Assembly (NCBI GenBank): GCA_900169975.1
Contig: LT827126.1
Coordinates: 62,001-126,000 of the forward strand
Length of the DNA stretch: 64,000 nucleotides
Reading direction: 5' to 3'
From: Pseudoflavonifractor sp. Marseille-P3106
GTDB taxonomy: Bacteria; Bacillota; Clostridia; Oscillospirales; Oscillospiraceae
Made by a program: the position numbers and the translations under genes. Below the pieces are notes generated by a model. It was not told where the DNA came from. It was given only the letters and a program-made list of their open reading frames with translations, and made no database searches. How positions within the stretch are numbered: the stretch's first letter is position 1; the number at the start of each line of letters is the position of its first letter. Below, piece after piece: positions 45,147 through 48,588 of this stretch.

Positions 45147-46526
45147 ATGGACTATATTGATTTTCTGGCGGGGAAAACGAAAGCGGCCCACAGCGTCGGC
45201 TTTGAGCCGTCCGGCCAGTTTGGGGAATTGTTCCCGTGGCAGTCTGATGTTACCGCCTGGGCCTGCAGGAAAGGCAGGGCGGCCATGTTCGAGGACTGTG
45301 GGCTTGGCAAAACGGCCCAGCAGCTCAAGTATGCAAAAGAAGTCCATGAGGCCACCGGAGACCCGGTCCTTATTCTGGCCCCGCTGGCTGTGTCCAGGCA
45401 GACCGTCCGAGAGGGGGAGAAGTTCGGCGTAGATGTCAAACTGGCCGAGATGGAATCTGATATTGTCAGCGGCGTCAACATCACCAACTATGAAAAACTG
45501 GACAAATTCAACACGGCCCGATTCGGAGGCGTGGTCTTGGACGAGTCCAGCATTTTGAAGGCATACACCGGAAAAGTGAAGCGGCAGATCTGTGACGCCT
45601 TCCGCGATACGCCCTATAAGCTGGCGGCTACGGCCACACCGGCCCCGAACGATCTCATGGAATTGCTCAATCATGCGGAGTTTCTGGGAATCATGCGCTC
45701 TAATGAGGCGCTGAGCTGCTGGTTTATCGCGGATCAGTCCAACAGCGGCCATTATCGGCTGAAAGGTCATGCGGAAAAGGACTTTTGGCGCTGGGTCGCG
45801 TCCTGGGCGGTGTGCATCTCCAAGCCGTCCGACATCGGGTATCCGGACGATGGGTATGAGCTGCCTCCGCTGGAAGAAGTGAATGACATTCTGCCTGTGG
45901 GAATCGGAAGCGATCTGGCCGATGCAGCCCGAAAGGTAGACATGTCGGCCACCGGGTACCACCGGGAGAAACGCCGGACACTGGATGCCCGCACCAGAAG
46001 ATGCGCCGAACTGGCCTCCGCCACAGACGAACAGGTCCTGATCTGGTGCTATCAGAACGACGAGGCGGACGCATTGAAGGCACTGCTTCCTGATGCTGTG
46101 GAGATCAGGGGAAGCGACAAGGCCGAAACGAAGGAACTGGCCGCGCTGGACTTCATCGACGGAAAACGGCGGGTGTTGATTTCCAAGCCGTCCATCTTTG
46201 GCTACGGGCTGAACTTTCAGAATTGCCACCGGGCAATCTTCTGCGGGATGGATTACAGCTATGAGAGCTACTACCAGGCCGTGCGGCGGCTGTACCGCTT
46301 CGGGCAGGAAAGCCCAGTTACAATCCACCGTGTGCTGGGAGACACAGAGCGGCACATCCTAGACGTTGTGACGCAGAAGGAGCGGATGAAGCAGGATATG
46401 GGGCGCAGCATGGCGCAGGCGATGAAAGAATATCAGACCGGAGAGATCCGAGGGCGGTCCTTTACGCTGGATCTTACGCCGCAGAAGGCGGAAATTCCGG
46501 TTTGGCTGAGGGGTGAAAGCGCGTGA
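45147..46526 (+). CDS. SNF2/DEAD-like superfamily 2 helicase
   Basis: A 459-residue SF2 protein. Walker A is modified (FEDCGLGKTAQQL), motif Ia is LILAPLAVSRQTVREGEKF, motif II is VLDESS, motif III LAATATPAPN, motif V ISKPSIFGYGLNFQNCHRAIF and motif VI SYYQAVRRLYRFGQ. The layout is that of compact phage SNF2 proteins. It overlaps a DNA methyltransferase gene by 4 bases, and a second methyltransferase follows. A shared task with them, such as translocation-coupled modification or recombination, is an inference. Confidence 0.85.
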   Translation: MDYIDFLAGKTKAAHSVGFEPSGQFGELFPWQSDVTAWACRKGRAAMFEDCGLGKTAQQLKYAKEVHEATGDPVLILAPLAVSRQTVREGEKFGVDVKLAEMESDIVSGVNITNYEKLDKFNTARFGGVVLDESSILKAYTGKVKRQICDAFRDTPYKLAATATPAPNDLMELLNHAEFLGIMRSNEALSCWFIADQSNSGHYRLKGHAEKDFWRWVASWAVCISKPSDIGYPDDGYELPPLEEVNDILPVGIGSDLADAARKVDMSATGYHREKRRTLDARTRRCAELASATDEQVLIWCYQNDEADALKALLPDAVEIRGSDKAETKELAALDFIDGKRRVLISKPSIFGYGLNFQNCHRAIFCGMDYSYESYYQAVRRLYRFGQESPVTIHRVLGDTERHILDVVTQKERMKQDMGRSMAQAMKEYQTGEIRGRSFTLDLTPQKAEIPVWLRGESA

Positions 46527-47452
46527 ACAGCGTGATAACAGATCAATATGCCCTTTACAACGGCGACTGTGTTGAATTGACCCGGCAGATGCCAACCGGG
46601 AGCGTTCACTTTGAGGTGTTCAGCCCTCCGTTTGCAAACCTGTATATCTACTCGGATGACCTCCGCGATATGGGAAACTACCGGGACGAGGAAGAGTTCT
46701 TTGAGCAGTTCGACTATCTCATCCCGGAGCTCTACCGGGTGCTGATGCCGGGGCGGCTGTGTGCCGTCCACTGCAAGCAGCTGGCCCGCTACAAGACCAG
46801 CCACGGCGCTTCCGGCTGGTATGACTTCCGGGGCGACATCATCCGCCATTTTGAGGCGGCTGGATTTCAGTATCACAGCGAGTTTACGATCTGGACAAAT
46901 CCAGTTTTAGAGATGCAAAAAACAAAGACACAACGCCTGCTTTATTGCCAGCTCCAGCGAGACGCCAGCCTGTCTGGTTCCGGGATGCCGGAGTATCTGG
47001 TGATCTTCCGCAAGTGGGAGGGAGACGGGAAGAATCCTGAGCCCATCCGCCATTTCCGGGATTTGGCGGCGGCGGATGCTGATGGAGGGAGTCCGCGGCA
47101 GGTCTTGGACCTGGAAACTTGGCAGAAGTACGCTTCTCCAGTGTGGTTTGACATTCGGCGTACAGACGTGCTCAATGCCAGAATTGCCAGGGAGGACAAG
47201 GACGAAAAGCACATTTGCCCGCTTCAGCTGGAAGTCATCCGGCGGGCGGTGCGGCTTTACACAAACCCGGGCGACGTGGTGTATTCACCTTACGGCGGGA
47301 TCGGTTCTGAGCCGTACATAGCGCTGGAGCAGGGGCGGAAGGCCGTGGCGGCCGAGCTGAAGGAGACATATTTTAACCAAATGGTTTCCAACTGCCGGGA
47401 GATCACGGACGCCGAGCAGATCACTCTCTTCGACGGGGAGGCTTCGACATGA
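46523..47452 (+). CDS. DNA methyltransferase, N4-cytosine/N6-adenine class
   Basis: A 309-residue amino-methyltransferase of the beta arrangement. The catalytic motif IV is SPPF ([14 protein letters not shown], about residue 33), and the AdoMet-binding motif I comes late as [39 protein letters not shown] is more common in N4-cytosine enzymes, but the target base is not certain. The N-terminal coding overlap with the SNF2 gene and the overlap with the next C5-methyltransferase (ATGA) show one translational unit. No cognate restriction nuclease is seen, so it probably protects phage DNA. Confidence 0.85.
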
Positions 47453-48588
47453 GCGGGGCCTGCGAAGGAAATACACACCTGTCTTTGTTCACGGGGATCG
47501 GAGGCCTTGACTTGGCTGCGGAAATGGCTGGATTTACTACGGTGGGACAATGCGAGTTTGCGGATTATCCCACAAAGGTCCTGGAGCGGCACTGGCCAAG
47601 CGTCCCGAGGTGGCGAGATATTCGGACGCTGACAAAGGAGAGTTTTTATGAGCGAACAGGCATGCGAACAGTTGACATTATTTCCGGTGGATTCCCCTGC
47701 CAGCCGTTTTCCGTTGCCGGGAAGCGAAGAGGCAAAGCGGATGACCGTTACCTCTGGCCTGAAATGCTCCGAGTTGTGCAAGAACTCCGGCCCGCTTGGG
47801 TCGTTGGTGAAAATGTTGCTGGGCTCGTCAGCATGGTCTCATCCCGCGAGGCTCTTCGAGTGGAAGGCAGAATGCTTGACCGCTTCGAGGACGCAGATCA
47901 TTATGAGGCGGCATGGATACGACAGGAGAACATGCTGCTCGTGGAACTCATCGGAGACCTTGAAAGGCTGGGATACTCCGTCCAACCGTTTGTTATACCG
48001 GCTTGTGCCGTCGGCGCCAGCCACAGGAGAGACAGAATCGCCTTGGTGGCCTACTCCGACCGTGGCGGACACCTTCACATGGGGAATGAAATCAAACCAG
48101 CAAAAGCCCGGGAGCATGCACAGTGTAAACCTGTCCGATGCGGTACAGATGTGGCCAACACCCAGTGCATCAGACTGCGGGAGGACGGCAATCAACCCGC
48201 ATTTGACCGCAAATGGAACCGTACGGCACATCGGGAAGAACGGGAAGCAGAGCTATGCCAGATTGGACGCCGTGGCGGCGATGTTTCCGACGCCGATTGC
48301 AACGGACTGGAAAAACAGGGAGCATCAGCTTCAAACGATGGTTGGCGGCCAGCTGAATCCAGCATGGGTAGAGTGGCTGATGGGATTCCCGCCTGGATGG
48401 ACGGATATTGGTTGACAGAGCCTGATATCCCAAGAGTTGCGTCTGGAGTCCCAAATCGCGTGGACAAGTTGCGGTGCCTCGGAAACGCTGTGTACTGGCG
48501 GCAATTCTATCCGATTTTTAGCGGGATTTACGGTCTGAGCGTCCCGCGCCTACGAAATTTGAAGGAGGCCCAAGATGGAGGACATTGA
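47449..48588 (+). CDS. C5-cytosine DNA methyltransferase
   Basis: A 379-residue Dcm-type enzyme. Motif I is [17 protein letters not shown] (residues 13-29), motif [11 protein letters not shown] with catalytic Cys84, motif VI ENVAG (121-125), motif [13 protein letters not shown], and motif [11 protein letters not shown] near the C-terminus. The variable region (about 205-330) reads VAYSDRGG...[11 protein letters not shown]...[11 protein letters not shown]...[14 protein letters not shown]. It repeats the VA(D/N) element usual in phage Dcm proteins. This region is also read in another frame by the gene at 47648-48415. Confidence 0.92.
47648..48415 (+). CDS. Overlapping-frame phage protein nested in the methyltransferase gene
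   Basis: In the +1 frame relative to the methyltransferase, ATG 47648 is preceded by AAGGAG at 7 bases and opens 255 codons without a stop. The product is not random. It contains [53 protein letters not shown] and three (W/F)PTP(x)A(x)D motifs ([24 protein letters not shown]), and ends [24 protein letters not shown] recognise this pattern from phage proteins usually annotated near or as cytosine methyltransferases. The PTP-A-D motifs fall on the same bases as the VA(Y/N)S/T elements of the methyltransferase. The function is unknown. Confidence 0.7.

Follow-up and report, generated by a model that had tools for sequence, protein, structure and literature searches.

Does the long open frame nested in a C5-cytosine methyltransferase gene of the window (the whole stretch of 64,000 nucleotides analysed here, part of a 3.1 Mb genome) encode a second protein, and if so, what would that protein contribute? 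The sequence-only reading had argued for a real protein in this frame and had suggested a methyltransferase partner, for example a specificity or anti-restriction factor. Both ORFs were confirmed at their places (Table 1). The nested ORF, hereafter beta, lies wholly inside the methyltransferase ORF, hereafter alpha, and has no stop in its 255 codons; the details from which the suggestion had been built, namely an AAGGAG with an ATG, three (W/F)PTP motifs, and identical bases that read VANTQC in alpha and WPTPSASD in beta, are all present. On the comparative evidence set out below, we consider it very probable that alpha and beta form one C5-cytosine methyltransferase, a heterodimer encoded by overlapping frames in which alpha would be the catalytic and beta the specificity subunit.

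The surroundings of the locus look like the early region of a prophage (Table 1), in which the SNF2-type helicase, the N4/N6 methyltransferase and alpha/beta make up a cluster of modification genes. An identical beta occurs in a viral contig of 37,497 bases. The same bacterial genome also holds a second, diverged alpha/beta pair (locus L102, G000:C15:207632-208291, minus strand), and other genomes of the family carry copies similar to it (L108-L115).

Table 1. Features of the alpha/beta locus and its surroundings, in window coordinates
Feature	Position	Strand	Remarks
Repressor	37232	-	
NinB/Orf recombination protein	40954		
Replication initiation protein	42215		
DnaB-type helicase	42849		
SNF2-type helicase	45147		
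N4/N6 amino-methyltransferase	46523-47452		directly upstream of alpha; 4 nt overlap with alpha start
Alpha, putative catalytic subunit of C5-cytosine methyltransferase, 379 aa	47449..48588	+	motifs I-VIII and X; without motif IX or target-recognition domain (TRD)
Alpha motif I	47488..47517	+	from alignment; outside overlap
Shine-Dalgarno AAGGAG of beta	47635..47640	+	7 nt 5' of ATG 47648; within alpha codons for TKES
Beta, putative second subunit, 255 aa	47648..48415	+	nested in alpha, +1 frame; candidate variable (target-recognition) domain and motif IX
Alpha motif IV (GGFPCQPFS)	47686..47712	+	presumed catalytic Cys84 at 47698-47700; P83 C84 Q85 invariant
Alpha motif VI (ENV)	47809..47817	+	
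Alpha motif VIII (HRRDR)	48022..48036	+	selected frame switches to beta just 3' across the family
Variable region	48037..48352	+	three beta PTP modules at 48050-48058, 48155-48163 and 48287-48295; alpha reading drifts, predicted disordered
Beta motif IX	48353..48400	+	hhalign to canonical RLTPRECARLQGFPDSF (weak); near-invariant in 96 beta sequences
Alpha motif X (LGNAV)	48478..48498	+	from alignment and profile; 3' of overlap
HNH endonuclease	49772		3' of the alpha/beta locus
Sigma-factor-like protein	50916		

Stop codons, co-occurrence and spread of beta

Judged on the window alone, the open beta frame is only modestly unlikely, at about 2 percent: when the alpha codons were shuffled synonymously, an equally long +1 frame arose in 378 of 20,000 cases, and the beta span was stop-free in 43 of 5000. 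This would suit a shadow ORF, that is, an open frame left as a by-product of the composition and conservation of alpha, as would the fact that the N-terminus of beta partly mirrors motif IV and gives weak matches even in canonical genes (MM1). Across relatives, however, no stop interrupts the +1 frame within the beta span, where about 1405 would be expected (266 alpha/beta loci, which were retained for an intact beta; a fairer measure is that beta is nearly full-length in 234 of the 240 loci picked by alpha), whereas canonical C5 methyltransferases used as a control contain 933 stops against 982 expected, with none of 72 genes stop-free. We regard this comparative evidence as decisive for beta as a real second gene. 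A shadow ORF, rejected on the stop counts, on the codon-position pattern described below (slowed third positions and a flip of the conserved frame) and on an excess of Shine-Dalgarno matches, seems to us scarcely tenable.

The Shine-Dalgarno excess amounts to matches of at least five bases before beta at 88 of 182 loci, versus 38 expected and a maximum of 49 in 100 synonymous resamplings, and it supports the dedicated start signal claimed earlier. A signal at the start of beta also argues against ribosomal frameshifting, which would yield an alpha-beta fusion and no free beta. Such a fusion is compatible with the conservation taken alone, but in the window the beta frame opens only five codons before its ATG (260 versus 255 codons); on that ground frameshifting was rejected as the main route, and we think it very unlikely.

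The co-occurrence of the two frames was followed in several sets of loci, the contigs compared being partly metagenomic. Set V comprised the best 80 of 597 viral loci picked by an alpha profile. Sets G and W likewise comprised the 80 best-scoring loci each, drawn from 114 genome loci picked by the alpha of the window and from 592 viral loci picked by the alpha of a Salmonella phage, respectively. Set B held at least 120 viral loci picked by a DNA pattern for the end of beta (V and B share some contigs), and control set C held 87 loci that a DNA pattern for canonical motif IX had selected. Beta overlaps alpha in the +1 frame at 80/80 loci in each of V, G and W, the best-scoring alpha-picked loci, and at 120/120 among the matches listed for B. 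In the control, beta occurs at 0/87 loci, although 78/87 have an alpha-type ORF and 74/87 have motif IX in that same ORF. In its N-terminal third the beta profile mirrors the motif IV region of alpha and can match other enzymes off-frame (E 3e-5 in MM1, 3e-11 in DLane), and presence was therefore scored again with nearly full-length coverage. On that footing, 226 of the 240 best-scoring loci of V, G and W have both proteins, eight have a full beta with an interrupted alpha, and six have neither in full (three of these at contig ends); a full alpha with a broken beta was found in none of the 240. The corresponding figures for the 120 loci listed in set B are 98 with both in full, eight with beta alone, 12 with neither and two with alpha alone (L173 and L244).

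These counts bear on whether beta might be a protein in its own right, with a regulatory or anti-restriction role, that is overprinted on the methyltransferase gene and no subunit of the enzyme. Overprinted genes often encode accessory factors, and beta has no named family beyond PHROGs, where two of the families concerned are labelled DNA methyltransferase. Against this reading, alpha accompanies beta at all of the listed loci that were picked by the beta motif, the controls are without beta, and beta matches a domain that is missing from alpha and present within the chain of single-chain relatives. The separate accessory factor was rejected on the co-occurrence counts and is, in our judgement, highly improbable; the anti-restriction alternative of the sequence-only reading gained no support of its own.

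A tblastn search with beta returned 104 phage records at E<1e-3, all under 60% identity, and in each of the 19 phage loci opened a methyltransferase gene overlaps the match, which occupies its +1 frame. Beta was found in 14 of 300 genomes of the family of the window and in 4 of 398 of its phylum (its own genome counted in both); the phylum matches also hold alpha, and by these searches the pair is not common in either. Record titles in set G nevertheless span Bacillota, Bacteroidota, Treponema, Acidobacteria and others. The overlap has a median length of about 740 nt over 201 loci. Automated annotation had been expected to discard beta, and many records do omit it: of 18 annotated phage regions opened, four carry beta, one of them in place of alpha. 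Depositor labels include 'g55 internal gene' (phage Shelly) and 'Mte8-like protein' (K1ind3); we guess that Mte8 may be a Swiss-Prot style name for a subunit of EcoHK31I.

Codon positions and the conserved frame

In a +1 overlap, the third codon position of alpha is the second of beta, and the first of alpha is the third of beta. Divergence was counted in 47 disjoint pairs of 80-98% identity, using for each region the pairs with at least five changes. Pairs were disjoint throughout and counted without correction for phylogeny; identity ranges were 80-98% for the families, 70-98% for controls, 74-98% for a proteobacterial-phage set and 76-98% for the analysis in 30-nt bins. Blocks that were gapped or under 62 percent, pairs with fewer than five changes per region (in the counts made pair by pair) and pairs outside the range were dropped, as were loci that lacked a motif match or whose motifs could not be located, which left 201 of 248 entries after removal of identical ones. 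The proteobacterial-phage set kept 65, with 15 alpha-beta pairs dropped for lack of a motif. The alignments comprised the window plus 95 (A3) and the window plus 75 (A4) of 128 listed loci.

In the alpha-only DNA flanking the overlap, third positions lead the divergence in 38/39 and 32/33 pairs. They still lead in 45/45 pairs where the overlap covers motifs IV-VIII, at half the rate. The synonymous-site constraint that had been put forward as a check is thus evident: third-position divergence of alpha falls from 0.31 on the 5' side to 0.15 in the overlap (lower in 40 of 42 pairs, Wilcoxon 5e-11), and the comparison with the 3' side gives 0.29 to 0.146 (lower in 29 of 37 pairs, 3e-6). The variable region shows a flip, the first position of alpha, which is silent for beta, leading in 33/37 pairs; the TRD of the canonical control flips in 0/16. 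The proteobacterial-phage set behaves likewise, with the flip in 24 of 29 pairs over the variable region and, over motifs IV-VIII, a lead of third positions in 28 of 30. The flip is absent from 4/37 and 5/29 pairs of the two sets, and the motif IX stretch, counted to the stop of beta, is mixed (19/25 and 10/20 pairs). Binned at 30 nt, the switch falls just after motif VIII, where p3/(p1+p3) declines through 0.66, 0.37 and 0.19, and the reversion about 60 nt past the start of LNP. The window itself, set against its three alignable relatives, follows the same trend in the variable region (p1 0.48, p2 0.20, p3 0.20).

As far as codon positions can tell, these patterns show that motifs I-VIII and X are kept in the alpha frame, and the variable region and motif IX in the beta frame. 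The VA(D/N)-S/T repeats, which the sequence-only reading had taken as typical of Dcm, would accordingly be mainly an off-frame shadow of the (W/F)PTPxAxD modules of beta, to judge from which frame is conserved. The same counts weigh against a reading in which beta supplies only motif IX and the TRD resides in alpha. That is the arrangement stated for M.EcoHK31I in the excerpt of PMC3404938, and alpha does stay in frame through the variable region. Its frame drifts there, however, and that of beta is conserved (the 33/37 and 24/29 pairs above); the alpha variable region is, moreover, predicted to be disordered, and single-chain relatives have beta-type modules at the position of the TRD. We therefore consider a TRD in alpha very unlikely.

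Proposed contributions of the two chains

Alpha is recognisably a C5 methyltransferase, matching Pfam DNA_methylase (PF00145) at E 3e-35 and TIGR00675 at 102.7 bits (cut-off 100.65), and motifs I, IV (PCQ), VI (ENV), VIII (RxR) and X are all in its chain. The TRD and motif IX that would be expected in the same chain of a C5 methyltransferase are absent, canonical columns 278-400 being skipped. A profile of 148 relatives, the alpha of the window not among them, aligns with canonical enzymes over motifs I-VIII at E 1e-43 and, more modestly, over motif X at E 4.9e-4, and between these it jumps 123 canonical columns, corresponding to the TRD and motif IX. In an AF2 model, motifs I-VIII and X are folded, residues 212-310 have pLDDT < 50 and are predicted to be disordered, and the whole matches M.HhaI at E 5e-13.

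The best local match of the beta profile to the canonical C5 profile pairs its motif IX with RLTPRECARLQGFPDSF, inside the gap of alpha. Taken in full, beta matches canonical enzymes weakly (E 0.1, probability 0.6 percent), and E 3.8e-4 is reached only with cut-out motif segments. Beta has no match in Pfam, NCBIfam or PADLOC, 20 beta members searched against Pfam at E up to 10 returned nothing, and PDB sequences gave no useful match; phrog_1008, labelled DNA methyltransferase by PHROGs, is matched by 20/20 members. The AlphaFold model of beta is poor (pLDDT 64, pTM 0.30) and finds no PDB match below E 1.7 with Foldseek. A poor model of the lone chain might be expected of an obligate subunit, yet it is no evidence for one. 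A match of the beta profile to the designed protein Tet4 (E 5.7e-4) was set aside as repeat-like chance, its best single stretch having an i-E of 4.9.

Between one and five PTP-type modules, with a median spacing of 36 aa, are present in 255 of 266 betas. Among disjoint pairs at least 85% identical over motifs I-VIII, the variable region is exchanged (under half of it alignable) in 18 of 44, as would be expected of a specificity module. To illustrate how modules may differ between near-alike methyltransferases, those of the Pseudomonas phages L007 and L016 are distinguished by one 96-nt insert, which adds a single PTP-type module (WPSP) to beta and leaves both frames open.

The identification of beta with the TRD and motif IX of a split C5 methyltransferase is supported most strongly by single-chain relatives, and further by the gap in the alpha profile and by the layouts of split forms. 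In the actinophage proteins DLane gp65 and Stultus gp4, alpha-type motifs I-VIII, PTP modules, motif IX and motif X all lie in one ORF, which reads several LPTPxxxD-like modules, then an LxAAFxEWMM motif, then motif X. In the stretch that separates the two alpha parts, the beta profile gives matches at E 1.6e-17 and 2.1e-10, respectively (eight sequences searched). These enzymes have the same parts as alpha plus beta in a continuous ORF, and unlike the nested loci their +1 frame is not open (9 and 11 stops). In AvatarAhPeg and Catdawg, a first gene carries motifs I-VIII and a second, in the +1 frame, carries the modules, motif IX and motif X. The expectation that homologues of beta always overlap a Dcm gene thus held for the 120 of 120 beta-picked loci listed and not for some actinophages, in which the chain is single or the second gene overlaps only in part.

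Further rearrangements were noted. In the mycobacteriophage loci L504 and L505, two genes annotated as 'DNA methylase' overlap in part and resemble an AquI-type division of this enzyme; the second of these genes in L504 is matched by 572 phage records, with hosts nearly all actinobacterial. In L366, L370 and L393 the beta frame runs into motif X, alpha ends earlier, the usual copy of motif IX is in the third frame, and a further, internal stretch resembles motif IX (TNPxLxEWxMGY or INPEWAEWLMGY); these may be natural AquI-like rearrangements or indels. Apparent indels shift motif IX or X to another frame in L025, L066, L107, L365, L392, L173 and L180, their position being in or near the variable region and, in L180, earlier; L173 has motifs I-VIII, IX and X in a single ORF. 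One viral contig (L047, 130-2000) has two tandem alpha/beta units, the second apparently without the N-terminal part of alpha. In phages L003, L004 and L014 the methyltransferase is closely followed by a phosphoadenosine phosphosulfate reductase-like gene.

At the level of sequence comparison, both frames are conserved and occur together, conservation passes from the alpha to the beta frame after motif VIII and returns after motif IX, and the chains complement each other. We accordingly envisage the following division of labour. Alpha would supply AdoMet binding and catalysis (motifs I-VIII) together with motif X. Beta, initiated at its own ribosome-binding site within the alpha gene, would hold the TRD, made up of (W/F)PTPxAxD modules in a variable series, with motif IX behind it, and most likely carries the DNA-reading half of the enzyme. 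Neither chain has the full motif set; hence both would be needed, and alpha and beta, presumably made from one message, should come together on DNA as an active heterodimer, with the target sequence dictated by beta. The specificity factor proposed earlier is in this way supported, and narrowed to a candidate for the missing TRD plus motif IX. The enzyme would most likely methylate prophage DNA against host restriction; for phage methyltransferases such self-methylation is an acknowledged role in the excerpt of PMC5601072.

Precedents and significance

The nested layout itself is already known, as M.EcoHK31I, published overlapping frames, depositor annotations of beta and the PHROGs labels attest, and M.EcoHK31I is the nearest precedent and the sole named one for the nested form. 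Its small polypeptide was reportedly described by Lee in 1995 as nested within the large gene in a different reading frame, a layout that beta would share. M.EaeI we take to be another two-polypeptide C5 methyltransferase of this kind. The window locus differs in that no annotated restriction enzyme adjoins alpha/beta in the regions opened, whereas M.EcoHK31I is part of a restriction-modification system. HNH endonucleases are found near alpha/beta in the window and in two Citrobacter plasmids (L412 and L413). As described in the excerpt of PMC3404938, M.EcoHK31I consists of two polypeptides, the large one with motifs I-VIII, X and a predicted TRD and the small one with motif IX; alpha and beta are alike in their motifs, but selection places the TRD in beta. 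M.AquI is likewise described in PMC3404938 as one C5 enzyme of two polypeptides. It is split within the variable region and has motif X in the small subunit, an arrangement that AvatarAhPeg and Catdawg appear to share; in the window, motif X is instead in alpha.

Fully overlapping C5 methyltransferase frames are described for S. thermophilus phages in the excerpt of PMC5601072, which cites phage MM1 and Tn5252. Equivalence with the overlaps of MM1 and 5093 was rejected, because in both the main ORF encodes a canonical enzyme in full, motifs IX and X included. Among the matches listed from the open PMC literature, no paper describing the alpha/beta arrangement in phages was found, nor, in the literature searched, anything on its breadth, on the pairing of alpha and beta, on a TRD in beta or on the series of single-chain, split and nested forms.

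The coexistence in phages of single-chain, end-overlapping split and nested forms suggests that a single gene was divided by frameshifts into the two parts of an obligate heterodimer, with no sequence lost. We are moderately confident of the wider proposal, namely that an old class of C5 methyltransferases encodes catalysis in frame 0, specificity in +1 and the last motif again in frame 0, that it arose through such frameshifts, and that specificity resides in the nested protein, contrary to what is stated for M.EcoHK31I.

Same-strand overlaps of about 740 nt, kept in phages and several bacterial phyla, are unusual in bacteria and their viruses, and forms that are single-chain, split and nested side by side provide material for studying the origin of overlapping genes. 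Annotation often retains one frame as a complete Dcm, though alone it is without a DNA-reading domain, and recognising beta would correct many phage methyltransferase annotations. Alpha and beta would also offer a ready-made split methyltransferase, with a specificity subunit that could possibly be swapped.
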